NCBI RefSeq assembly: GCF_900291465.1 | Contig: NZ_LT985808.1 | Location: forward strand, 1,162,747 to 1,226,746 | Length of the DNA: 64,000 nucleotides | Direction of reading: 5' to 3' | Source of the DNA: Bacteroides sp. Marseille-P3684 | Lineage (GTDB): Bacteria; Bacteroidota; Bacteroidia; Bacteroidales; Bacteroidaceae | In this document: positions 52,229 to 64,000 of the stretch, in pieces | How the letters are laid out: each line of letters starts with the position of its first letter | How positions within the stretch are numbered: position 1 is the first letter of the stretch | Notes under the pieces: model-generated | Database searches by the model: none | What the model saw: the letters and a program-made list of their open reading frames with translations, nothing else | What the model was told of the DNA's origin: nothing | Program-made: the position numbers and the translations under genes

Positions 52229-52881
52229 ATGTTAGTGAAACTCTTCGCGGCGGCTGTCCAGGGCATCGATGCCATCCCGGTGACCATCGAGGTGAACAGC
52301 TCCCGCGGCATCAGGTTCTTCCTGGTGGGCTTGCCTGACTCGGCGGTGAAGGAAAGCCACGAACGCATCATGTCCGCCCTCCAGGTCAACGGTTATCATT
52401 TTCCCGCCCATCAGATAGTCATCAACATGGCACCCGCCGACATCCGTAAGGAAGGGTCGGCATACGACCTCCCCATGGCGCTGGGTATCCTGGCGTCGGT
52501 AGGCCTCGTCCGGGAAGAACGCCTCCCGAACTTCCTGATTATGGGCGAGCTGAGTCTCGACGGCAGCCTGCAACCCATCAAGGGAGCCCTCCCCATCGCC
52601 ATCAAGGCGCGTGAGCTGGGTTATGAGGGTATCATCGTGCCCCGGCAGAACGCCCGCGAGGCGGCAGTGGTCAACAAACTCAAGGTCTACGGCGTGGAGA
52701 ACCTGCACGAGGTGGTGGACTTCTTCAACGGACGGCAGGACCTGGTACCCACCGAAGTCAATACGAGGGAGGAGTTCTACCGCGAGCAGACCGAGTTCGA
52801 ACTGGACTTTGCCGACGTCAAGGGGCAGGAGAGCGTCAAGCGCGCCTTCGAGGTGGCGGCAGCCGGTGGGCACAACCTCAT
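52229..52881 (+). pseudogene. 5' part of comM/yifB, split by an island
   Basis: These 217 codons are the N-terminal ChlI-like domain of a YifB/ComM AAA ATPase (MLVKLFAAAVQGIDAIPVTIEVN, PDSAVKESHERI, MAPADIRKEGSAYDLPMALG). The reading frame ends at 52891 in island sequence, after N-L-I-I-L. The matching 3' part starts at 63257. Joined at the shared AT, the two halves read N-L-I-M-I-G-A-P-G-S-G-K-S without a frame break. ComM proteins are branch-migration helicases used in natural transformation; in this state the product lacks its P-loop and is presumably inactive. Confidence 0.93.
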
Positions 52882-52905
52882 AATATTATAGTACAGAAAT
52901 ACAAC
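52873..52905. other. attL junction (host comM / island left end)
   Basis: Host CAACCTCAT meets island AATATTATAG; the shared dinucleotide AT is at 52880-52881. The island side runs to ATACAAC at 52899-52905, the mirror of GTTGTAT at the right end. Confidence 0.8.
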
Positions 52906-52923
52906 CATAAGAAAAAGATTCAG

Positions 52924-52931
52924 TATATTTG
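52924..52931 (+). promoter_or_regulatory. Probable -7 box of the serine recombinase
   Basis: TATATTTG is a full consensus match 19 nt before the integrase ATG, just inside the attL arm. No -33 TTTG is evident. Confidence 0.45.
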
Positions 52932-52950
52932 CCAAAAAGCAAATAATAAT

Positions 52951-54891
52951 ATGGAATCTGAGTTATATAACTTTGGTACAGACGCAATAATCATTACAAG
53001 AGTGTCTACACCCCAACAAGTTTTGAATCCCGAATGTTCACCCCAATTGAGCGACCTTCAAAAATACGCAGAATTATATGGCTTTACAAGGCTAAAAACT
53101 TTTGGAACAACAGAAAGTGGTTTTTTACGTGAAGATTCTAAGGTCGGCTGGAATCTAGTAACTGATTTTATATCTAAAAATCCAACATTTCGAACAATCA
53201 TTGTGACAGAGATAAGTCGTCTAGGCCGCAATGATGAGATTCTCATGCACATTAAAAATTATTTGATTGAGAATAAAATTCAACTAATCATTAAAGACAT
53301 AAATTTTGAATTGTTCAATAGATTTGGAACAATAGACCAGGGTAAAGATATTATATTTGGACTATATGCTTCAATGGCTGCTGCCGAAATGCGTACAAAA
53401 TTAGAGAGGTTTAAGCGAGCTAGAAAAGAGTATAGAAAATTAGGTTATTCAATTGGAGGAAAGAGATTATTTGGTTATGAACGCATTTGTGATGGTAAAC
53501 TAGGGAAAAAAAATACATATATACCAAACCCAAAAGAGACTGATGAAATTAATACTATATATAATTGGTATCTGAATGGAATAGATGGAGATTTAACAAT
53601 AACATCTATAGCGAGAATAGCCTATGAATCCAAGGCAAGAGGATTCAGCAAGTATTTGCACTCAAGAAGAAATGTAAACAAATGCTTGAAGGAAAGTGCA
53701 TATATAGGATATAAAGTAACACATAATCGAATTAAAAATCCCCAATATTGGAATTATAAGGATGAAACAGCTCCTAAATACATTCTTGCTAATTCGTATG
53801 AATGTAGTTATCCTCAAATTATTAGTGATACTTTATTTAATGATGTACAAAAGAAGTTATCTACTGAAAGCACTCATTTTAAAGTATCGAATAATATACT
53901 TGTAGACAAATCCAGAAAGCACACAACAATACTAGCTAAAATCTTACGATGCCCAGTATGTGGTAACTTTTTTATTGCAGATTATAGGATTAAAGATAAT
54001 TACATTAAACATACATATCGATGTAGTAGCGCAAAAGGTAAACTGTTTAGGAAATGTAATAATACTCAGACTATATCAATGGTAATGTTGGATTCTGCAA
54101 CATGGGCATTTATTAAAGAAAAGGTGGAAGTTATTACTTCACACATGAATCATGCCAAACAACAGATAGATATAGAAAGTATTGAGTCCGAGATTGAAAG
54201 GCTGAACGCTGATATTAAAACATTTGATGAAAGAATTGATGCTGAAAATATTATATTCAGAACAACAATTAAATCTTCAAAGAACAAGGATAAAGTAATC
54301 ACTGAATATGAAAGGAATATTCGTAAGATTGAAAACGAACGTAAGAACCTTGAAAGGGTAATACAAGGAAAAGAACACTCATTACAGATTGCACTAGAAG
54401 CAAGTCAATCTAAAACGAATATAGATGAAATAGTTAGAGCCAATTTAGATAAAATAGAGAACGACAAAAAAGAAATGTATAAATACGTGCATCTCCTTAT
54501 CAAATCTGTATATCCCATACATTCCGACAAAAGATACACAGTCCTTTCAATAACATCTTTCAATAACATTGATGAGGTATTTGACTATCAATATGATAAA
54601 ACAGATATTCCTTTAATAAAAGGCAAAAAGCACGATAATACTTATTATATATGTTTAGACAAAAAAGATAGTAATAGAATAAAAGGGAGATTGATAACAG
54701 ATAATCTTATTATTTTTAACATTGAGACTAAGGATTTTATTTTAGGTGAATCTCATTATTCTATAGAAGATATATTTAATATTGATTTAAATGAAGGTGA
54801 CCCAACGAAATTCCATGAACTACAAAGAAGTGTTGAGGCTCTTCAATATAAAAAGCTAACTTTTTATGATGAAGATAATACTGTTATTTAG
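52951..54891 (+). CDS. Large serine recombinase (integrase)
   Basis: The 646-residue protein has an N-terminal resolvase domain with the catalytic Ser in ITRVSTPQQ (about residue 19), EISRLGRN (about 90) and ASMAAAEMRTKLERFKRA (helix E region). The recombinase domain follows (YGSIGGKRLFGYERI-like), then a zinc ribbon (LRCPVCGNFF, YRCSSAKGKLFRKCNN; Cys pairs near 333-373) and a coiled coil (about 400-500). Such enzymes integrate at one attB without host factors. It sits 45 bp from the attL arm, as expected, and should be the enzyme that cut comM. Confidence 0.95.
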   Translation: MESELYNFGTDAIIITRVSTPQQVLNPECSPQLSDLQKYAELYGFTRLKTFGTTESGFLREDSKVGWNLVTDFISKNPTFRTIIVTEISRLGRNDEILMHIKNYLIENKIQLIIKDINFELFNRFGTIDQGKDIIFGLYASMAAAEMRTKLERFKRARKEYRKLGYSIGGKRLFGYERICDGKLGKKNTYIPNPKETDEINTIYNWYLNGIDGDLTITSIARIAYESKARGFSKYLHSRRNVNKCLKESAYIGYKVTHNRIKNPQYWNYKDETAPKYILANSYECSYPQIISDTLFNDVQKKLSTESTHFKVSNNILVDKSRKHTTILAKILRCPVCGNFFIADYRIKDNYIKHTYRCSSAKGKLFRKCNNTQTISMVMLDSATWAFIKEKVEVITSHMNHAKQQIDIESIESEIERLNADIKTFDERIDAENIIFRTTIKSSKNKDKVITEYERNIRKIENERKNLERVIQGKEHSLQIALEASQSKTNIDEIVRANLDKIENDKKEMYKYVHLLIKSVYPIHSDKRYTVLSITSFNNIDEVFDYQYDKTDIPLIKGKKHDNTYYICLDKKDSNRIKGRLITDNLIIFNIETKDFILGESHYSIEDIFNIDLNEGDPTKFHELQRSVEALQYKKLTFYDEDNTVI

Positions 54892-54990
54892 GTAACTTCT
54901 ATCAACAAATAATGAAGTAGCTCCTTATACTTCATAGAACGGTTCAGCATGAAAAATTCTGGAAAAATTTTCTCCTACATTATTACACAA

Positions 54991-55022
54991 TTTGGTTTTC
55001 TGATATTTTTTAGGTATATTTG
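54991..55022 (+). promoter_or_regulatory. Canonical promoter upstream of the Rep-like gene
   Basis: TTTG (54991-54994), 20 bp, TATATTTG (55015-55022): full match to the Bacteroidetes consensus. Transcription would begin near 55029, about 105 nt before the next gene. Confidence 0.75.
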
Positions 55023-55058
55023 AACTACAAGATAGATAATAAGAATTAAAAAAAACGG

Positions 55059-55102
55059 AAAGATAGTACGTTTATCCTCAGTTGAGGAAATGTACTATCT
55101 TT
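55059..55102 (+). terminator. Leader hairpin: attenuator or sRNA terminator
   Basis: AAAGATAGTAC (55059-55069) and GTACTATCTTT (55092-55102) form an 11-bp stem with an inner CCTCAGTTGAGG dyad, followed by a run of T. It lies between the promoter at 54991 and the start at 55134, so transcripts must read through it to reach the Rep-like gene. Confidence 0.75.
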
Positions 55103-55133
55103 TTTTATTTAGTAATTTAATAATCAAAATATT

Positions 55134-55886
55134 ATGGAAAAAGTAGAATACCAATTTACACAGGTACCAACGAAATTAATGATACTGTTGGACGTTAATT
55201 GTAGGAGTATGTTGTTTACCCTTTGTCAGCTAGCTAGCCATTATACCAAAGATGGTGGCAGATTCTTCCGCACTAATGCAGATTTAGCATTAGAAAGCAG
55301 ATTAAGCCAAAAGCTCGTTATAGCAACACTAGATACGCTATATACTCATGGAATAGTGGAGATATGGAGTGTTGGCAAGGGAAAAGGAAAACATGCTAAT
55401 TACTTTAAGTTGAATCTTGAAAGAATAAAGGAGTTTGAACGTCTAAAAATGGATGAATTGAAAAATCCCGAATTACAACTTCCAATGGTTGATTATCGTG
55501 CTAAGGGGTATTCACCAAGTTATTTAAAAAAGAATACTCAAAATGTTTCCCAAGAAATTCCCAATGATTTCCCTAGAATTTCCCAAATTACCAACAATAT
55601 AAATAATATAGAAAATATAGATAATGAAGAAAATAAAAAGAATATAGATAATAAAGAAGGTATAAATAATAAAGAGAATAAAAGGAAATTTGAAGTAAAT
55701 TGTATTATGGAAATTGATAATAAGGATAAGGCTAAATTGTTATTTAATAATGATGAGTTCAATTATATTATTGGTAAATTGATAGATAAAGGACTTTCAA
55801 GAGATGAAATTATGGATGAATTGAAAATTAATAATCCCAAGTGCTATGATTACTTCAATAGAGCCTCATCCCAATTATCATCTTGA
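55134..55886 (+). CDS. Winged-helix protein, replication-initiator-like
   Basis: The 250-residue protein has an N-terminal winged helix (DVNCRSMLFTLCQLASHY, FFRTNADLALESRLSQKLV, IATLDTLYTHGIVEIW; about 20-95) that resembles those of phage and plasmid replication proteins. A low-complexity N/K/E/I linker (about 150-195) and a C-terminal helical part follow. It could open the element's replication origin, but this is inference. It lies behind a promoter and a terminator-like leader, which suggests controlled dosage. Confidence 0.6.
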   Translation: MEKVEYQFTQVPTKLMILLDVNCRSMLFTLCQLASHYTKDGGRFFRTNADLALESRLSQKLVIATLDTLYTHGIVEIWSVGKGKGKHANYFKLNLERIKEFERLKMDELKNPELQLPMVDYRAKGYSPSYLKKNTQNVSQEIPNDFPRISQITNNINNIENIDNEENKKNIDNKEGINNKENKRKFEVNCIMEIDNKDKAKLLFNNDEFNYIIGKLIDKGLSRDEIMDELKINNPKCYDYFNRASSQLSS

Positions 55887-55988
55887 TTTTTTTCTTTCTT
55901 TTTCTATACTTTACTTATTCTGTAGATATTTATTATTAGAAGTTACAATAAAGTTACTTCGATAATAAATTAAGTAATAGAATAAAGT

Positions 55989-56423
55989 ATGAATACTAAT
56001 ATACTCCAAGATGTAAAGAGAAAGATAGAAGAACTTCAAGAACTTATAAAAAGGTTAGAACAGCCTCATCAAACAAAACTAGACTATGTAGACTTGTCAG
56101 AGGGTGGCAATGAAGATAAACTAGCTAGAATAACGGAACAGATAGCTCAATACGATATAAACATACTCCCAACGTCAAAGGATTCACAATTAGTCAGGTG
56201 TGCCATAGTCAATGAACTAGCAGATAGAGGAATGAAGTATTGGCATGTGATTAGGTCAATGGCTGATAATTATGATGAGGCTGACCAAACAAAGAAATAT
56301 GTATATCTGATGAGTAGAAAAGATACTATTAGGCTCAACTTTGGAGTGATAGTAAACCGATATAAAGCAGCAATAGACAAGTATAATAGAGACATAAACA
56401 TAGATGACGATGGAAACAACTAA
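55989..56423 (+). CDS. Island protein, unknown function
   Basis: The 144-residue protein begins with a coiled coil (ILQDVKRKIEELQELIKRLEQ, residues 5-25) and continues with a helical core (RCAIVNELADRGMKYWHVIRSMADNY). It has no signal, membrane segment or catalytic motif that I recognise. It overlaps the next gene by 14 bp, which suggests that the two are translated together. It lies 102 bp after the Rep-like gene, probably in the same transcription unit. Confidence 0.6.
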   Translation: MNTNILQDVKRKIEELQELIKRLEQPHQTKLDYVDLSEGGNEDKLARITEQIAQYDINILPTSKDSQLVRCAIVNELADRGMKYWHVIRSMADNYDEADQTKKYVYLMSRKDTIRLNFGVIVNRYKAAIDKYNRDINIDDDGNN

Positions 56424-56742
56424 ACAATCAGTAAATCGAAGCGGAAACCTTAATCCAATGTTTGGGAAGCGTCAATCATTGGAGACAAAACAAAAAATCA
56501 GTGACAGTCAGCGAAAACGATATGCAGCTATCCGAAAGGCAATTAGAGAGCAGGACATGTTACAATTTGCAAAGGCAGATGATGAAGCTAGAAAAGAGCT
56601 TATACATCAACTGTTGGACAAAAATAACATATCCTTCGACAACATTCAACAAGCCGTTAACTTCGTTGCTTTTCTACTTGAAAAAGAGAGAGTTGAAGCT
56701 ATTATAAAAGAGGAAATCAATAAACTGTTAGCCAGAGATTAA
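56410..56742 (+). CDS. Small protein with NUMOD3-like DNA-binding motif
   Basis: The protein has 110 residues from METTKQSVNRSGNLNPMF; the ATG two codons earlier (56404) is also possible. Residues about 10-40 (SGNLNPMFGKRQSLETKQKI) match the NUMOD3 motif, a minor-groove DNA-binding element usually found repeated in GIY-YIG and HNH homing endonucleases. Here it stands with a helical tail and no nuclease domain. It may be a DNA-binding accessory of the element, for example at its origin or att site. Confidence 0.6.
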   Translation: METTKQSVNRSGNLNPMFGKRQSLETKQKISDSQRKRYAAIRKAIREQDMLQFAKADDEARKELIHQLLDKNNISFDNIQQAVNFVAFLLEKERVEAIIKEEINKLLARD

Positions 56743-56816
56743 CACGGGTAGTACAATGCAAAATTATAAATTCTGCATAACTAATTGATTATCAGTATAG
56801 GAAAACGGTTTGTCAA

Positions 56817-57068
56817 TTATTCTGATTCTTGTTTTTTTCTGCCTCTAGTTGATGGTTTGGTATATAACTTTCCCTTTCTGATAATGCACTTACTATTTTT
56901 ATATAGCTGAGGGTCATTATCAGATAGTTTAGAAAAGTAATTATTCAAAGAAGCCTTGCTGATTCCCAGTTCCTCTGCCGTATGTTTATCATATAGAGAA
57001 GATGGAGAGCCGTAGTATTCGTGTACTTCATTAATTTCCAAATGGATAATCGTTCTATATTCTTCCAT
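56817..57068 (-). CDS. Small HTH-like regulator
   Basis: The protein has 83 residues from MEEYRTIIHLEINEVHEYY. An open frame reaches 57113, but a full promoter (57083-57114) overlaps those 15 codons, so the start is set at 57068. The segment KHTAEELGISKASLNNYFSKL (about 27-47) reads as a helix-turn-helix; the tail is basic (TRGRKKQESE). It is divergent from 57227, and the space between carries strong dyads, so it is the best candidate to bind the duplicated operator module. Confidence 0.6.
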   Translation of the reverse strand: MEEYRTIIHLEINEVHEYYGSPSSLYDKHTAEELGISKASLNNYFSKLSDNDPQLYKNSKCIIRKGKLYTKPSTRGRKKQESE

Positions 57069-57082
57069 ATCTATATTTTTTA

Positions 57083-57114
57083 CAAAGTTACTAGAAATGT
57101 TATCTATATTCAAA
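57083..57114 (-). promoter_or_regulatory. Canonical minus-strand promoter of the small HTH gene
   Basis: On the minus strand: TTTG (57111-57114), 20 bp, TAACTTTG (57083-57090). The start near 57076 leaves the ATG at 57068 about 8 nt downstream. The -33 box is part of a copy of the operator half-site AAATAGAATCAT. Confidence 0.7.
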
Positions 57115-57182
57115 TAGAATCATATTTTTAACTTGGTTTAACGTTAAGTATGATTCTATTTCAAATAGAATCATTATCTTTG
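57111..57182 (+). promoter_or_regulatory. Operator-promoter module, copy 1
   Basis: The half-site AAATAGAATCAT occurs at 57112-57123 and 57163-57174, and inverted at 57150-57161. The last two form a perfect 12-bp dyad around one base. A TTAACGTTAA palindrome lies at 57139-57148, and the -7 box TATCTTTG at 57175-57182 abuts the dyad. A protein on the dyad would block the promoter of the 57227 gene. Confidence 0.7.
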
Positions 57183-57226
57183 TAATGTGATAATAAAAAC
57201 GAGTAATAACAATAAAACTTAAAGAT

Positions 57227-57562
57227 ATGAAAGCAATTCAATTCAACAGTTCAAATGTAGTAGCAACAGCAGTTAAGTGTATGGCACATGATATGGATGA
57301 GGCTACATCAGTAAGTAAGGGTATGATGGCAGAAACCTTAAAAAAACGTATGATGCGAGGCGAGGTCGTAAGATTCTGTTATCAAAAACTTAATGGCGAA
57401 ATTAGATTTGCTGTTGGAACATTACAGAGTGATGCAGTAAAGGCAAATGTAAATGGTAATGGTATTCCCAAACGGCTTTACGGTATGTTTGTATATTTGG
57501 ACTTGCAAAAGATGGAATGGAGAGGATTCAAACAAGAGCGGTTAATTGGAATTGTTGATTAA
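57227..57562 (+). CDS. Small island protein, DUF2693-like
   Basis: The 111-residue protein has a C-terminal half (GEVVRFCYQKLNGEIRFAVGTL, then FVYLDLQKMEWRGFKQERLIGI) that follows the beta-rich pattern of DUF2693 proteins: a K-x-G-x-R-x-x-x-G-T run, then D-x-x-x-x-x-W-R-x-F. Function is unknown. It is controlled by operator module copy 1 and ended by a hairpin terminator at once, so it is a single-gene unit. Confidence 0.6.
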   Translation: MKAIQFNSSNVVATAVKCMAHDMDEATSVSKGMMAETLKKRMMRGEVVRFCYQKLNGEIRFAVGTLQSDAVKANVNGNGIPKRLYGMFVYLDLQKMEWRGFKQERLIGIVD

Positions 57563-57584
57563 TAGGTGGGGTAATCCCACCTAT
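57562..57584 (+). terminator. Terminator of the 57227 gene
   Basis: ATAGGTGGG (57562-57570) and CCCACCTAT (57576-57584) with a 5-nt loop, then TTTTTG. Confidence 0.85.
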
Positions 57585-57599
57585 TTTTGTTATTACATT

Positions 57600-57680
57600 A
57601 TTCTATTTTAAATATAATCATATTTTTAACTGGGTTTAACAGTAAATATTATTCTAATTAAAATAGAATCACTATCTTTG
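57600..57680 (+). promoter_or_regulatory. Operator-promoter module, copy 2
   Basis: The block repeats copy 1 with substitutions: ATTCTATTTTAAATATAATCAT (57600-57621), the shared ATATTTTTAACTGGGTTTAAC stretch, AAAATAGAATCAC and TATCTTTG (57673-57680), all in the same order and spacing. It precedes the 57706 gene, so both genes should answer to one regulator. Confidence 0.7.
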
Positions 57681-57705
57681 TACTGTAATCAAAAAGCAAG
57701 AAGAT

Positions 57706-58026
57706 ATGAACACTACAGAGATAATAAATAAAGCACTGAAAGTATTAAATAGTCAAGATTGGTATTGGTATATGTCGGATTACCAAGTAAGCGAAATGAA
57801 AGATAAGGCTTACAGTTCGATGCGTTACTTCGTTGAATTGATTTCTGCAATAAGTGATTCAACAATCAGAAAAGCTATGAGAGAGTTATGGATGGCTACA
57901 TATAATTATAAGAGCTTAAGCTCACCAATGAGTTCTCCGACTGATAAAGAAGTTCAAGAATACAACAATACAAAAGCAGAATTGATGGCTGTTATCCTTC
58001 CATCAAGATATAATATAGCAGCTTAA
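57706..58026 (+). CDS. Small island protein, unknown function
   Basis: The 106-residue protein is rich in aromatic residues near the N-terminus (NSQDWYWYMSDYQVSEMKDK) and helical thereafter (RYFVELISAISDSTIRKAMRELWMATYNY). I recognise no family with certainty. It shares its promoter architecture with the 57227 gene and so probably belongs to the same regulon. A hairpin at 58070-58094 follows without a T run. Confidence 0.55.
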   Translation: MNTTEIINKALKVLNSQDWYWYMSDYQVSEMKDKAYSSMRYFVELISAISDSTIRKAMRELWMATYNYKSLSSPMSSPTDKEVQEYNNTKAELMAVILPSRYNIAA

Positions 58027-58069
58027 CAATATTCACTTCTTTAGAAAAGTGGTTATAGCTTGATAATCA

Positions 58070-58094
58070 GCAGCCTCTTAAAATGAGAGGCTGC
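58070..58094 (+). promoter_or_regulatory. Hairpin before the tyrosine recombinase gene
   Basis: GCAGCCTCT (58070-58078) and AGAGGCTGC (58086-58094), loop TAAAATG. There is no T tract after it; it could be a processing site or affect translation of the gene starting 42 nt downstream. Confidence 0.5.
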
Positions 58095-58136
58095 AATATA
58101 TTCACTAAAATATTAATCAATATAAAACTGAATGTT

Positions 58137-58727
58137 ATGAGCGTAAAAAATAGTACAACTGTAGCGGATTATATAGAATGGGATAAGGCGGTTAATTTAG
58201 TACATAGATTATTCAATGATGGTGAATATCGTATGTCATTGCTTATTGGGTGTGGTATCTTCTTTGGATTGCGAATAAGTGATATTCTTCAATTGACTTG
58301 GGAAATGCTTCTATCTGACAAGTCTTTTGAACTGATTGAGAAGAAAACAAAGAAGCATAGAGAGATTAGAATCAATTCTAACTTTCAGAAGCATGCACAA
58401 AAGTGCTATGATGCTCTATGTATAACAGATATGTCGCAAAAGTGCTTTATAAGCCGTAAGAATAGCGTTTATAGCATTCAGAGAATCAATGTATTATTAA
58501 AAGGCATCAAGGTTAAATACGGCTTAAAGTCGGTCAAAAATTTTAGTTCTCATTCCCTCAGAAAAACATTTGGACGCCATGTTTATGAGAAGGCTGATTC
58601 TAACGGAGAAATGGCTTTAGTTATGCTCTCAGAGCTATTTAATCATTCAAATATAGCAATAACCAAACGCTATCTTGGATTAAGGAAAGAAGAAATATTG
58701 CACTGTTATGACTTATTAGAGTTTTGA
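58137..58727 (+). CDS. Tyrosine recombinase, catalytic domain only
   Basis: The protein has 196 residues from MSVKNSTTVADYIEWDKAV; an earlier ATG (58083) lies inside a hairpin and is less likely. The catalytic set is visible: GLRISDILQLTW (Arg near 44), SHSLRKTFGRHVYE (His and Arg near 142-145), LFNHSNIAITKRYLGL (His near 168 and Tyr near 177). The N-terminal core-binding domain of XerC/D-type enzymes is missing or very short. It could resolve dimers or invert a segment. Confidence 0.8.
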   Translation: MSVKNSTTVADYIEWDKAVNLVHRLFNDGEYRMSLLIGCGIFFGLRISDILQLTWEMLLSDKSFELIEKKTKKHREIRINSNFQKHAQKCYDALCITDMSQKCFISRKNSVYSIQRINVLLKGIKVKYGLKSVKNFSSHSLRKTFGRHVYEKADSNGEMALVMLSELFNHSNIAITKRYLGLRKEEILHCYDLLEF

Positions 58728-58760
58728 TAAAAAGACGTATATTTGCAAAATGAAAAAAAT

Positions 58761-59126
58761 ATGAAGATAAAAGAGATAGACCCATTTGAAAAACAAAATA
58801 TATTCCATAATCGTATGATTAAGGATTACAAGGACGGAAAAATACCACATTCTTCCGTCTTTGCGTCATATTTTAAATGGAAAATGGGTGAATGTAGTCA
58901 TTCTGAAATCACTAGGGAAATGGCTCTTAAAATGATGAATGAAGTATCTACATTACTTGATGAATATTATGAAAAGCATCCAAAGGCATACGAGAATATG
59001 GATGCTTATATTAATGAAGACCCTTGGCAACAATATAAAGGATTTGGAAAAGATAAATACGTTGTATCTTATCTTGAAGCTGTTGAGGGAGAGCTTTACA
59101 ATATAATAGAAATACTTAATAATTAA
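58761..59126 (+). CDS. Small protein coupled to the methyltransferase
   Basis: The protein has 121 residues from MKIKEIDPFEKQNIFHNRM; an in-frame TTG at 58743 is the only earlier choice. It is helical and charged, with no motif that I recognise. Its TAA overlaps the methyltransferase ATG (TAATG), which points to translational coupling, so a role in the modification system is plausible. TATATTTG (58738-58745) could be its -7 box. Confidence 0.6.
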   Translation: MKIKEIDPFEKQNIFHNRMIKDYKDGKIPHSSVFASYFKWKMGECSHSEITREMALKMMNEVSTLLDEYYEKHPKAYENMDAYINEDPWQQYKGFGKDKYVVSYLEAVEGELYNIIEILNN

Positions 59127-60388
59127 TGGAAAAGATAAATGTTATAGAGCTATTTGCTGGCGTCGGAGGATTTAGAATAGGGCTTGATAGAGCAAATTCA
59201 AAATTTTTTAAAACAATATGGAGTAATCAATTTGAGCCTTCCACAAAAATTCAACATGCTTCACGAACTTATGTAGCACGTTTTGGAGAAGAAGGTCATG
59301 TTAATGAAGATATAGCAAAAGTGCTAACCAAAGATATTCCAGACCATGATATGCTTGTTGGTGGTTTCCCTTGCCAAGATTATTCCGTAGCACGTACATT
59401 AAGCCAAGCTGCAGGACTTGAAGGTAAAAAAGGTGTATTATGGTGGGAAATACACAGGATTATTAAAGAGAAAGGAAATAATAGCCCCAATATCTTATTT
59501 CTTGAAAATGTTGATAGGCTAATTCTTTCACCTGCGAAACAAAGAGGACGGGATTTTGCAATAATTCTTCAATCTCTATCCGATTTGGGATATATCGTAG
59601 AGTGGAGAATTATAAATGCAGCTGATTATGGAATGCCACAAAGAAGAAGAAGAACATATATTCTTGCATACAAAAAGAATACAGTAATAGCTAATAGTAT
59701 TCAAGACCCAACAGAATGGATTTTTCACGATGGTATTTTTGCAACAGCTTTTCCTGTTAAAGATTATGATTGTACATTTCCATTATATCCAACACATCTA
59801 AAACTCAATAAGGATAAAGATTTGGCTGATTTAAGTTCTGAGTTTAACAAGAGCAATAAGGCAAAACCTTTTGAAAATTGTGGATTAATGATTGAGGGAG
59901 AATATTATACTTACAAAACAATTCCTAATTATATTGGCAATTCGACAGTCTTAGGAGATATAATAGCTAAAGGTGAAGATAGAAAATATTTAACAGATGA
60001 TTTTTATATCAATAAAGAAGACTTGCCCAAATGGGAATACTTGAAAGGAGCAAAACATGAAGAGCGAAAAACAAGGGATGGAAGAATTTTCTATTATAAT
60101 GAGGGAGGTATGACGTTTCCTGATGCCCTAGATAAGCCTTCGAGAACTATAATTACTTCGGAAGGAGGAAAAACCCCTTCAAGATTTAAACACGTTATAA
60201 AAGACCCTATTAATGGTAGATTGAGACGTTTAATTCCTCTTGAGTTGGAAAGACTTAATATGTTTCCTGATAATCATACAATAGGTGAAAATGACACCAA
60301 AAGAGCTTTCTTTATGGGAAATGCCTTAGTTTGTGGAATTATTACAAAAGTTGGAATAGAATTATATAATAGACTCAAGGAAAAATAA
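59126..60388 (+). CDS. DNA (cytosine-5) methyltransferase
   Basis: The 420-residue protein has the ordered C5-methyltransferase motifs: I FAGVGGFRIG (about 9-18), IV GGFPCQDYS with the catalytic Cys (about 76), VI LENVDRL (about 127), VIII MPQRRRRTYIL (about 171), a variable target-recognition region (about 185-330), IX and X (RRLIPLELERLNMFP, MGNALVCGII). It methylates cytosine in a site that cannot be read here. Convergent with a two-gene operon holding a probable nuclease, it forms a type II restriction-modification unit. Confidence 0.95.
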   Translation: MEKINVIELFAGVGGFRIGLDRANSKFFKTIWSNQFEPSTKIQHASRTYVARFGEEGHVNEDIAKVLTKDIPDHDMLVGGFPCQDYSVARTLSQAAGLEGKKGVLWWEIHRIIKEKGNNSPNILFLENVDRLILSPAKQRGRDFAIILQSLSDLGYIVEWRIINAADYGMPQRRRRTYILAYKKNTVIANSIQDPTEWIFHDGIFATAFPVKDYDCTFPLYPTHLKLNKDKDLADLSSEFNKSNKAKPFENCGLMIEGEYYTYKTIPNYIGNSTVLGDIIAKGEDRKYLTDDFYINKEDLPKWEYLKGAKHEERKTRDGRIFYYNEGGMTFPDALDKPSRTIITSEGGKTPSRFKHVIKDPINGRLRRLIPLELERLNMFPDNHTIGENDTKRAFFMGNALVCGIITKVGIELYNRLKEK

Positions 60389-60413
60389 GGCATTGGGGAT
60401 TATCCCCAATGCC
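60389..60413. terminator. Bidirectional terminator
   Basis: GGCATTGGGGA (60389-60399) and TCCCCAATGCC (60403-60413), perfect 11-bp stem with a 3-nt loop, between convergent genes. Confidence 0.85.
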
Positions 60414-60419
60414 AGTTTC

Positions 60420-61055
60420 TTATACCTCAATAATTCCACTTATAGTTGCTAGTTCTAAGAGCACTTTTTTTCTTAACACAATGTTAATCGGTGATTCTGC
60501 AAGATTGGTACTATGAAAAAACCAAAAATCCTTTCCTTCTGATTTATCATGTTGACCTTTCTGATTTTTAGCTCTTATCTCAGCATCCTTCTTTTTTAGT
60601 TCTTCTACAGAATAGCCATGCGATGCTAAATAATCAAGTATACTACCTCTACTAACTAGGGCATATTCTATCTTTTTTATATCTTCTGACTTTATATTCC
60701 AATCAGAATCTGATTTATGTATCCACTGAAATAAATAATATTCAGTTACCTTTTCTTTGTCTGTAAGCCAGCCTTCAATAATCTTGCCATCTGACGCAAT
60801 AAAGGATAATTCCAAAGAAAAAGTTGGTAGTGGCTTATTAATATACTGAGTCTGAGCCTTTTCATCTACAATAACATTATTAAGCCCCTTTGTGGGAATT
60901 GATATTATAATATCAGACCCATGTAATTGACTATCAATATCGTCTGTTCTATTACTTTGTGTAAATATTTTTTGAGAGTATAAATGTTTATCAAGAAATT
61001 TAGCGATTTCCCTTTCAACATTCATGTCCCTACCTCTTAATACTGATTTTGCCAT
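60420..61055 (-). CDS. Probable restriction endonuclease (PD-(D/E)XK-like)
   Basis: The 211-residue protein has GSDIIISIPTKGLNNVIVDEKAQTQY (about 47-72), the arrangement D-x(n)-D-E-K expected of a PD-(D/E)XK nuclease core. A predicted helix precedes it (REIAKFLDKHLYSQKIF) and FSLELSF follows. No family match can be confirmed by eye. Its place next to a C5 methyltransferase makes a restriction role likely. The start lies 3 bp after the stop of the preceding gene in the same operon. Confidence 0.6.
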   Translation of the reverse strand: MAKSVLRGRDMNVEREIAKFLDKHLYSQKIFTQSNRTDDIDSQLHGSDIIISIPTKGLNNVIVDEKAQTQYINKPLPTFSLELSFIASDGKIIEGWLTDKEKVTEYYLFQWIHKSDSDWNIKSEDIKKIEYALVSRGSILDYLASHGYSVEELKKKDAEIRAKNQKGQHDKSEGKDFWFFHSTNLAESPINIVLRKKVLLELATISGIIEV

Positions 61056-61058
61056 ACT

Positions 61059-61817
61059 TTATCTAATTTTAAGCCAAGGGAAAGCCTCTTTTGCAACACT
61101 TTGAGGGATTGCAGAGACTCCAATTGGCGGTCTTGAAAACTGAGAACATAATTTCGCAATAGAACCAACACCCATAAAAATAGATATTATATGAGCATAG
61201 GTTAACATATTATTTTGTCTGCCAATACCCGAATGTACATCATAACCTAAAGTATCATACTTTACATCTTCATTCCAAGCAATTGCTTCCATATAATGTA
61301 AATATGCTTCAATGCTTATCCCATCATATATAGGTATAACCGCATTAAGATAGTTAATAGCCTCTTGTGGTGGGCAATAAGTTAGTATTCCATTAATTTC
61401 TTTATGGTCTATAAGAAAAGCATTTCTATACATTAAGCATCCTAATACTTCTAAAGCTTTATCATCTATCTTACTAACATCTTGAAAGAAATGAAAAATA
61501 TGGTCAAAGCTAGAGTCAAATTCACGCATTTCTCCATCAATGCACACAAAAGGTCGCATGTCATTGGGATTATTCCCTTTTGTTCCATTTTTCCAACTGA
61601 TGGTATTAACATAATATTCTTTTCCAAATTTACCTACTCCAACTTTACATCTACCATCAATAGATTCCCACATTAAGTGATAATCATAAGTATCTTTAAC
61701 AGTCTTTCCACTTAGACTTTTTCCATATTTGATTAACCATTCCTTTTTTGAACGCACTAAAGCCTTAAAAGCTTTATTACGAATAATTTTATCTTCAATA
61801 GCCAAACTCTCCATCAT
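61059..61817 (-). CDS. Unknown protein of the restriction operon
   Basis: The 252-residue protein has a basic N-terminus (KALVRSKKEWLIKYGKSLSGK), a middle beta-rich part (GKFGKEYYVNTISWKNGT) and a helical C-terminal part with HSGIGRQNNMLTYAHIIS. I recognise no family. It is first in a two-gene operon with the probable nuclease (3-bp gap) and divergent from the XRE-NADAR gene, so it may be a second restriction subunit or a partner of that protein. Confidence 0.6.
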   Translation of the reverse strand: MMESLAIEDKIIRNKAFKALVRSKKEWLIKYGKSLSGKTVKDTYDYHLMWESIDGRCKVGVGKFGKEYYVNTISWKNGTKGNNPNDMRPFVCIDGEMREFDSSFDHIFHFFQDVSKIDDKALEVLGCLMYRNAFLIDHKEINGILTYCPPQEAINYLNAVIPIYDGISIEAYLHYMEAIAWNEDVKYDTLGYDVHSGIGRQNNMLTYAHIISIFMGVGSIAKLCSQFSRPPIGVSAIPQSVAKEAFPWLKIR

Positions 61818-61879
61818 AAAATATGTGTATATTATTATTGGCTGTAAATATGGCCATAATTTTCGGGATAACCTAGTAA

Positions 61880-62009
61880 TTATTCACTAATATTCAAAAG
61901 TGAATATTGGAATATGAGTTTAAATAGCTGATAATAAATTATTTACATAGAAAATTTAATATATAGCGCAAAATGGATATTCACTTTTATCTGTTTTGCG
62001 CTATTTTTG
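61880..62009. promoter_or_regulatory. Divergent control region of the restriction operon and XRE-NADAR gene
   Basis: AATATTCA/TGAATATT (61889-61896/61901-61908) is an 8-bp dyad with a 4-bp spacer, and TATTCAC recurs at 61881 and 61977. AGCGCAAAA/TTTTGCGCT (61965-61973/61994-62002) is a hairpin whose 3' arm runs into a plus-strand -7 box TATTTTTG (62002-62009). The sites fit binding by a dimeric HTH protein. Confidence 0.55.
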
Positions 62010-62067
62010 TATATTCAAGTTGATTAAAAATTCATATATTTACATCCATATTGATTTTTATATCACT

Positions 62068-63228
62068 ATGAGAGAAATAGACAATATAAAGAGAATTATG
62101 GATGAGGCTCGTATGAGCCAAAGAGAACTGTCACAAAGAAGCGGTATAGCTCATGAAACAATATCCAAAATCCTAAATGGGAAATATCCCCTTAGCCATA
62201 AGTTATTTGTCAAGATTGCTGATGGTTTGAACGTTCCTATATCTGAATTAATGGAAGATGCTATAACTCCTATCACTGTTGATGTACAAGGCTATGTTGA
62301 GTATGATAATCAGATAATCAAAATTAAGTCCCTTCGTCAGCTACAAAAGTTGGTTCATCAAATTGAACACGAGACTAGCATACTGCCGAGAGAAGTGAAG
62401 GAAATTAAAGTTCAAAATGAGATGAATCGAAAGTTGATTAAAAATTCAATAAAAAACAATGATTATGAATTTTATATCAATGACTTTGAACTGATTCAAT
62501 CACATGATGCAACGAAAGTGGACTGTTGGGCCTTCAAGGCTGCATCCGACAGCAAGGACGGTATAATACTAAATTTGGGGAATCAATGTTCTGGTTATCC
62601 GTTTCAGTTAAACGGACATGTGTTTTTTACGTCTGAAAGTGCATACTTGTGCGGTCAATTTTCTAATAATACAGAAGAGCACAAACGCATTCAGTATCAG
62701 TTAATGTCTGAGAAAAATGGCTATACTGCAAAGAAGAGGGTCAAGAATGCTAACAAGGAAACAATTAGAGCCGATTGGGATTCATTCAGAGTTGATTGGA
62801 TGTTATATGTTATATGGATGAAATGTCAAAATAAAGATTTTGCGGAAAAATTAAAATCACTTCCTCCTAGTGCCGTCATCATTGAAAACAGCACAACAGT
62901 TCATGAGGGGACAAGTTCGATATGGGGTTGCAAAAATGTTGAGCTTGAAGAAGCAAGGAAGAAGGTAGAACGTTATACATATTTACAGTATATGAAGAAG
63001 GTACGAAGCGGAAAAATTAAGATGAACAGTCAAGAACTAGATGCACTTATTCAATCAGAGAGGGATAAGATTCAATATATTGGGACTTATTCAGACGGGA
63101 AAAATTATATGGGTAAAATACTGAAAATCTGTCAATTAGCATTATTAAATAACACAAAACCTCGTATTAATTATGACTTGTTACGGTCAAAGAGAATATA
63201 TCTATTAGGTGAATTATTGACTTTCTAA
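62068..63228 (+). CDS. XRE helix-turn-helix protein fused to a NADAR-like domain
   Basis: The protein has 386 residues from MREIDNIKRIMDEARMSQREL; codons upstream of 62068 are AT-rich leader. Residues 10-62 form an XRE HTH (MSQRELSQRSGIAHETISKI), and 90-125 a charged helical linker. Residues about 150-300 follow the NADAR/YbiA plan: YPFQLNGHVFFTSESAYLCGQF (Glu190), AKKRVKNANKETIRADW (Trp237), AVIIENST and SIWGCKN (Trp286-Gly287). NADAR enzymes remove ADP-ribose or cleave N-glycosidic bonds, and some reverse DNA ADP-ribosylation. It is divergent from the restriction operon. The domain call is by pattern only. Confidence 0.7.
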   Translation: MREIDNIKRIMDEARMSQRELSQRSGIAHETISKILNGKYPLSHKLFVKIADGLNVPISELMEDAITPITVDVQGYVEYDNQIIKIKSLRQLQKLVHQIEHETSILPREVKEIKVQNEMNRKLIKNSIKNNDYEFYINDFELIQSHDATKVDCWAFKAASDSKDGIILNLGNQCSGYPFQLNGHVFFTSESAYLCGQFSNNTEEHKRIQYQLMSEKNGYTAKKRVKNANKETIRADWDSFRVDWMLYVIWMKCQNKDFAEKLKSLPPSAVIIENSTTVHEGTSSIWGCKNVELEEARKKVERYTYLQYMKKVRSGKIKMNSQELDALIQSERDKIQYIGTYSDGKNYMGKILKICQLALLNNTKPRINYDLLRSKRIYLLGELLTF

Positions 63229-63233
63229 CAGGA

Positions 63234-63270
63234 GTTGTATAATTGCACATATTTAAATCATGATTGGTGC
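63234..63270. other. attR junction (island right end / host comM)
   Basis: Island GTTGTAT (63234-63240) through ATTTAA meets AT at 63257-63258 and host CATGATTGGTGCG. Joined to the left end, GTTGTAT and ATACAAC become mirror arms of a 49-bp attP-like site. Confidence 0.8.
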
Positions 63271-64000
63271 GCCTGGCAGTGGCAAGTCGATGATGGCAAA
63301 GCGGCTCCCGTCCATCCTTCCGCCACTGACCCTGGCGGAGAGCCTGGAGACGACGAAGATACACTCGGTGGCAGGCAAGCTCGGCAGCCGGACGGCACTC
63401 ATCGCCCGCCGTCCCTTCCGCTCGCCCCACCACTCCATCTCGTCGGTCGCACTCATCGGCGGCGGACAGAACCCGCAACCCGGCGAGATAAGCCTGGCGC
63501 ACAACGGGGTGCTCTTTGCCGACGAACTGCCGGAGTTCAGCCGGAGCGTGCTGGAGGTGCTGCGCCAGCCGCTGGAGGACCGTAAAATCACCATCTCGCG
63601 CGCCCGCTACAGTGTGGAGTTCCCGTGCAGCTTCATGTTTGTCGCCTCGATGAATCCCTGCCCGTGCGGCTACTACAACCATCCGACGCGTCAGTGCGTC
63701 TGCTCGCCGGGACAGGTGGCACGCTACCTCAACCGCATCTCCGGTCCGCTGCTCGACCGCATCGACATCCAGGTGGAGATTGTCCCGGTGGCGTTCGAAC
63801 AGATGAGCGACTCCCGGCGCGGGGAGCGCAGCGCCGACATCCGTCAGCGGGTGATACGCGCCCGGCAGATACAGGAGGAACGGTACCGCGAATACCCCGG
63901 CATCCACTGCAACGCACAGATGACGTCGGCGTTGCTCGCGGAGTATGCCCAGCCCGACGCGAAGAGTCTCTCCCTGCTCAAGCAGGCGATGGAACGGCTC
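63257..64000 (+). pseudogene. 3' part of comM/yifB (continues past the window)
   Basis: From the shared AT the frame reads M-I-G-A-P-G-S-G-K-S (Walker A), then SPHHSISSVALIGGG, LAHNGVLFADELPEF (Walker B) and NPCPCGYYNHPTRQCVCSPGQVARYLNRISGPLLDRIDI. This is the AAA and sensor region of the Mg-chelatase-like YifB/ComM family. It stays open to the window end. Separated from its promoter and N-terminal domain by the island, it should not give a full ComM unless the island excises. Confidence 0.92.

Follow-up and report, generated by a model that had tools for sequence, protein, structure and literature searches.

Background

The controller (C) proteins of restriction-modification (R-M) systems, among them C.AhdI and C.Esp1396I, are small single-domain proteins with an XRE fold, are tied to the type of R-M that they accompany and have operators on the sides of both the restriction (R) and the methylase (M) genes. 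Members of the NADAR/YbiA superfamily, such as YbiA (2b3w), the P. nicotianae NADAR (8bau; Pn below) and the DarT1-linked NADAR of E. coli C7, are known as ADP-ribosyl erasers, antitoxins and riboflavin-pathway enzymes (PMC11543638, PMC11125620). The subject of this work is a gene of Bacteroides sp. Marseille-P3684, a gut-type bacterium, whose product, P0001, joins both folds: it lies in a stretch of 64,000 nucleotides (contig NZ_LT985808.1, positions 1,162,747 to 1,226,746; the window below), at the right end of a mobile island of about 10.4 kb and beside a putative R-M module (Table 1).

Two further groups of regulators are close to what we propose for this protein. In the NrtR family, exemplified by the Bacteroides AraR, an enzyme fold with an impaired active site is the effector domain of a one-component regulator (PMC4666351); the logic proposed for P0001 is the same, although the folds differ and P0001 has no Nudix-like domain, no Nudix profile being found among its Pfam or NCBIfam matches at E<=1. 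Nudix- or WYL-HTH regulators have been proposed, in PMC9503650, as ADP-ribose sensors in ARG-centred anti-viral operons in which nucleases are possible; NADAR is there an accessory enzyme and not the sensor of the regulator, and no ARG gene was recognised on the island of P0001. No description of an XRE-NADAR regulator was recognised among the titles and abstract openings of a mainly open-access literature.

An XRE domain fused to a NADAR-fold domain

The joining of an XRE and a NADAR domain in one protein, proposed by a first-pass annotation made from the sequence, was confirmed by the match to HTH_3 and by the predicted model of P0001. In structure comparisons of this model, the N-terminal part takes an XRE fold resembling that of solved C proteins and the C-terminal domain takes the expected NADAR fold, and the hairpin and long helix between them are, judging by the model, a possible dimer part. 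At the profile level, the Pfam NADAR model is absent from the Pfam matches of P0001 itself, and 8 of the 10 relatives in our alignment A2 match it at E<=0.1. The nearest named profile is that of an anti-phage NADAR, NF053876 (DS-32), which P0001 matches with 44.8 bits, below the 240-bit equivalog cut-off, and which all 10 A2 members match at E<=0.01. The name DS-32 presumably comes from DefensePredictor (PMC13092281), two passages of whose main text name NADAR domains and not DS-32.

In the sampled Bacteroidaceae, 13 of 399 genomes match P0001 at 1e-8 or better, and profile searches at 1e-15 picked up 2 of 393 genomes in the order and 7 of 395 in the phylum (own genome counted in each case), the remaining order and phylum matches being frames of 167-213 aa or slightly more (216 at most) without the XRE part. 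At 1e-20, matches are present in 4 of 61 genomes from the genus of G283, and in 1 of 17 from that of G034. XRE-fused members were found in the window, in B. mediterraneensis (85% identity; its entries L024 and G283 are apparently one assembly), in G034 (39%), in the IMG/VR contig L066 (34%) and, as a divergent form, at locus L054 of G376. In a tree of the NADAR domain the first four form, together with sisters that lack the XRE part, a clade of 11 members (98/99 support), and L054 is placed outside it, so the fusion arose or was lost on more than one occasion, provided that the long-branched L054 is correctly placed. Most clade members lack the XRE part, which points to a separate role for the NADAR domain. 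Searches of IMG/VR with P0001, with the L054 protein and with protein P0009 found nothing, and with alignment A2 a single homologue, L066; a plasmid search with P0001 gave no matches.

A changed active site

Residues were mapped, by alignment and not by measured structure, with MAFFT over 23 sequences: 14 clade members (11 assigned by the NADAR-domain tree; L051, L078 and L079 by similarity) and 9 outsiders, the C7 and Pn numbers following PMC11543638. Both glutamates that correspond to ribose-contacting residues, E190 (E88 in C7, E43 in Pn) and the second acidic residue E273 (D171 in C7, E125 in Pn), are conserved in 14/14 clade members and 9/9 outsiders. W286 is present in all 13 clade members long enough to reach it, and the two residues singled out by the first-pass annotation, Glu190 and Trp286, have thus been kept. 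The position of the phosphate-binding lysine (K95 in C7, K50 in Pn), in contrast, is Q197 in P0001 and is basic in 0/14 clade members (Q, Q, L, L, E, E, E, E, I, E, E, L, E, E) and in 9/9 outsiders (K or R). Position 226 (R79) is basic throughout the clade (14/14, versus 1/9 outsiders), so the charge may have moved. The spacing between the WG and GxN motifs is 57 residues in P0001 and in protein P0008, 47-48 in nine clade members, 11 in L027 and L053 and 21 in the partial L051, as against 10 in 8 of the 9 outsiders (79 in L054). By its Lys-to-Gln change, its spacing and its fused XRE domain, P0001 differs from the described NADAR/YbiA proteins. We tentatively read it as an NrtR-like ligand-sensing regulator and not as a classic eraser.

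The same residues bear on another explanation, in which P0001, as a working NADAR enzyme or a defence factor, would strip ADP-ribose or ribosyl groups from DNA, RNA or nucleotides in infection, with its XRE part repressing its own gene and no control of restriction. We consider this rather unlikely, and keep it because neither glutamate has been lost and position 226 carries a basic residue; the anti-phage NADAR as nearest named profile, the PARG and ADP-ribosylglycohydrolase genes near sister genes and the XRE-less state of most clade members also speak for it. The non-basic residue at position 197 in all clade members speaks against it, this lysine being essential for efficient guanine-ADP-ribose hydrolysis by the C7 NADAR, where Arg can replace it in vitro (PMC11543638).

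A dyad shared by the two sides of the R-M module

What is new in this analysis is the perfect dyad of the region between the fusion gene and P0002, and its recurrence before the row of genes that leads to the methylase. With up to 4 mismatches, only these two sites (61881-61906 and 58030-58055) match in the 64-kb window; with up to 3, 0.15 matches are expected. The motif TATTCAC occurs seven times in the island, against a simulated mean of 2.37 (seven being reached in 1 of 100 simulations), and three copies within 110 bp were met in none of 200 simulations. The candidate promoter of the fusion gene fits TAnnTTTG, the pattern of the Bacteroides -7 element.

Our tentative preference, at close to an even chance, is that P0001 is a one-component regulator of the mobile defence island, with its XRE domain on the dyads and its NADAR domain as the ligand-responsive part. 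The XRE part would bind, as a dimer, the TATTCAC-type dyads in the divergent region and before the methylase row, and would thereby repress or time the fusion gene itself and the R genes, perhaps also the M row, in the fashion of a C protein; the NADAR domain, with its changed phosphate site, would bind an ADP-ribose-like compound or a ribosylated nucleotide, and this ligand would alter DNA binding, as may be compared with the Nudix-like domain of NrtR. The fusion and its fold are real and the active site is unusual; we infer the binding of the dyads by P0001, the R and M genes as its targets, sensing over catalysis and the kind of ligand. Control of R and M through a circuit like that of a controller is plausible, and the function of the protein is a predicted one. 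The matching site before the methylase genes suggests that P0001 may control both halves of the R-M defence.

If this is true, a NADAR clade whose active site has been rebuilt, and in which some members carry a repressor-type domain, would make NADAR a sensor fold like Nudix in NrtR; if the shared dyads are operators of P0001, restriction would be linked to NAD/ADP-ribose chemistry, a chemistry relevant to phage defence. A narrower and rather unlikely form has the NADAR domain of a restriction controller, its phosphate site rebuilt, sensing an NAD-derived nucleotide or an ADP-ribosylated base that arises during infection; the methylase and nuclease genes of a mobile R-M island would be switched accordingly, which would place restriction directly under ADP-ribose signalling.

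Several observations weigh against the regulator preferred above. The dyad pattern was picked after inspecting the sequence, and at least two matches with up to 3 mismatches are present in 3 of 100 shuffles; in simulated islands the expected number of matches is 0.005 at up to 2 mismatches, 0.18 at up to 3 and 1.67 at up to 4. A spacer control gives other 2-mismatch pairs (spacers 0, 3, 8 and 20) through overlapping half-sites; compared with the operators of C proteins, we have here a shared candidate dyad with a partly ambiguous spacer control. Dyads had been claimed for the divergent region by the first-pass annotation: the perfect dyad is there, but the region taken alone is weak, as 10 of 300 shuffles reach its number of dyads and 83 of 300 its arm length. 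With up to 3 mismatches the dyad was found in 0 of 16 other loci scanned, two of which are the B. mediterraneensis contig, ending one base inside the dyad. Other proteins of the island may bind these sites, loss of the lysine need not end activity, and no ADP-ribosyltransferase or NAD-consuming gene was recognised among the island genes scanned. Finally, the linkage of XRE-NADAR to R-M genes is loose and not conserved; of three further loci where related R-M genes lie, none carries an XRE-NADAR gene. The linkage is suggestive but no rule.

The position of the second dyad also bears on a CI-like repressor of island mobility, which would hold the recombinase genes and be freed through NADAR by an infection or stress signal, the R and M genes being cargo with other promoters. 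This too is an unlikely explanation, kept because the second dyad is directly before the tyrosine recombinase gene that heads the methylase row; moreover, the only matches of P0001 in a phage search were CI-like repressors of two Porphyromonas prophages, which residues 2-98 (XRE part only) resemble (33%), and serine-type recombinases are also present in the L025, L047 and L054 regions. Yet the island has no further dyad with up to 4 mismatches, hence none before its serine recombinase, and one of the two dyads lies between the fusion gene and the R genes.

Between window positions 61882-62123 and L024 1-242 of B. mediterraneensis the 186 bp upstream show 3 differences and the first 56 bases of the coding sequence are identical, whereas 30-codon blocks past residue 60 differ at 11-26% of bases, codons for the same amino acid included. 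This uneven divergence resembles the trace of a recombination tract more than that of selection, a hint that islands exchange the promoter side. The three upstream substitutions miss the dyads, to which we give little weight. An invertible promoter between 61896-61907 and 61977-61988 was considered and dropped, the sole relative readable there having the same orientation.

Association with restriction-modification genes

The first-pass annotation had described the fusion as divergent from a probable nuclease operon. P0003 and P0002 do lie on the opposite strand; their Pfam matches are weak only (P0003) or lacking (P0002), so the R-M label comes from association and motif. GxD and DEK are kept in the 3 P0003 sequences compared. 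The methylase P0004 and a methylase of G073 share 72% identity; the latter is adjoined by homologues of P0003 (45%) and P0002 (38%), with a 76-aa XRE gene immediately in front of it; the order of the P0002 and P0003 genes is inverted between G073 (L056 2844-4350) and the window (60420-61817). In G267 a methylase split over two frames accompanies a P0002 homologue, and on a Psychrobacillus plasmid a P0003 homologue (30%) is found with dcm, a PLD-type endonuclease and a BglII-type endonuclease. P0003 had one match in plasmids and none in phages or viral contigs, and P0002 had none in plasmids. The search of solved structures gave five rows for the P0003 alignment (E 0.046-0.13, judged to be chance) and no match for that of P0002; the predicted model of P0003 (pLDDT 31.9) was too poor to use.

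R-M genes adjoin XRE-NADAR at 2 of the 4 readable loci, the window and L066, with two different R-M types, and homologues near restriction genes thus exist. At L066, hsdM, hsdS and an ApeA-HEPN gene are oppositely oriented to XRE-NADAR with one lipoprotein-like gene between, and hsdR was not recognised in the stretch examined. R-M genes were not recognised at G034 (BLAST only) or at G376 (BLAST, and Pfam scans of two neighbours). We considered and dropped the idea that B. mediterraneensis has retained these R-M genes next to its XRE-NADAR gene: its contig ends 186 bp upstream, P0002 was not found in the assembly, from which short contigs may be missing, and its nearest methylase (56.6%), with a MutH-domain gene, is on a contig other than that of XRE-NADAR.

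These counts speak for a passenger, an autoregulated cargo gene with no functional link to the R-M genes, next to which it came to lie as fellow cargo of defence islands: only two of four loci adjoin R-M genes, of different types, the related R-M loci have no XRE-NADAR, and P0002 was not found in B. mediterraneensis, with the caveat just given. The dyad shared with the region before the methylase row is against it, and we hold it to be quite improbable. The interpretation of the first-pass annotation is supported in part. With 386 amino acids and two domains, and not found at the related R-M loci, P0001 departs from the C proteins.

The ApeA-type HEPN gene of L066 (937-2238) stands beside both the type I R-M genes and XRE-NADAR on a contig classed as viral in IMG/VR; no phage gene was recognised among the frames of 13 kb of this contig.

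The island and other NADAR loci

Table 1. Features of the window and of sister NADAR clusters
Feature	Position	Strand	Remarks
XRE-NADAR fusion gene, P0001	62068..63228	+	386 aa
XRE DNA-binding domain	62068..62253	+	residues 1-62; HTH_3 at residues 7-61; VIA-align range 1-62 on C.AhdI
Hairpin and 39-residue helix	62290..62448	+	residues 75-86 and 89-127; DSSP of predicted model
NADAR-fold domain	62500..63225	+	residues ~145-386; E190, Q197 (Lys replaced), K226, E273, W286
Perfect dyad, candidate operator	61881..61906	.	TATTCACT-N10-AGTGAATA; divergent region
Further half-site	61977..61988	+	ATATTCACTTTT; inverted copy of 61896-61907, upstream of TATTTTTG
Candidate promoter of fusion gene	62002..62009	+	TATTTTTG
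Second dyad, candidate operator	58030..58055	+	2 mismatches; before tyrosine recombinase/127-aa/methylase row
127-aa protein	58743..59126	+	overlaps methylase start
C5 cytosine DNA methylase, P0004	59126..60388	+
Probable nuclease, P0003	60420..61055	-	211 aa; GxD, DEK motif
R-M module partner, P0002	61059..61817	-	252 aa; no Pfam match at E<=1
Mobile island	52882..63261		between TCAT repeats 52878-52881 and 63258-63261; ends read from sequence
comM (yifB), 5' part	52229..52881	+
comM, 3' part	63258..64000	+	resumes at Walker A motif, continues beyond window
Large serine recombinase	52951..54891	+	first gene of island
98-aa protein	56817..57113	-	70% identical to one in L054 island
WYL_2-domain protein	57227..57562	+
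Tyrosine recombinase	58083..58727	+	214 aa; matched by Phage_integrase domain only; heads methylase row
Sister NADAR cluster, L026	3-758, 1407-2114, 6185-6664
Sister NADAR cluster, L027	1019-1732, 10324-10779
Sister NADAR cluster, L049	5963-6811

In window 52229-64000, a serine-recombinase island splits comM (yifB) at the Walker A motif; its G+C content is 31.6%, versus 57.0% in the window left of it. The two comM parts align to the intact comM of G003 (L081) with an overlap of 5 bases; the 3' part is present in 12 of 15 same-genus genomes searched (own genome counted), and the open frame is 297 aa here versus 513-559 aa in the 11 others (intact in 11/11). From left to right the island encodes the serine recombinase, small genes (including WYL_2), the tyrosine recombinase, the 127-aa protein, the C5 methylase, P0003, P0002 and XRE-NADAR, which stops 29 bases short of the right junction. 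The 98-aa protein is another possible DNA-binding protein, and the tyrosine recombinase possibly has a role in DNA inversion. A plasmid search with the island DNA gave no matches.

In contrast to DarT1-NADAR toxin-antitoxin pairs, P0001 has no linked DarT, and the DarT model (PF14487) matches nothing in the host genome; in a control search over 14 genomes it matched in one. With the Pfam NADAR model a second NADAR is found in the host, as the C-terminal part of a 543-aa frame (L058 1486-3117, minus strand). Among the sister NADAR genes, that of L049 has a PARG-type gene at about 0.3 kb and that of L026 an ADP-ribosylglycohydrolase gene at about 6 kb; the L026 and L027 clusters contain N-formylglutamate amidohydrolase genes and share a small partner gene (60% identical). 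At L029 (G077:C212, 2261-2842 and 2850-3497, minus strand), a Lys-bearing NADAR gene directly follows a gene with weak ART-PolyVal/DUF3990 similarity, and by these similarities the two are likely an ADP-ribosyltransferase/NADAR pair.
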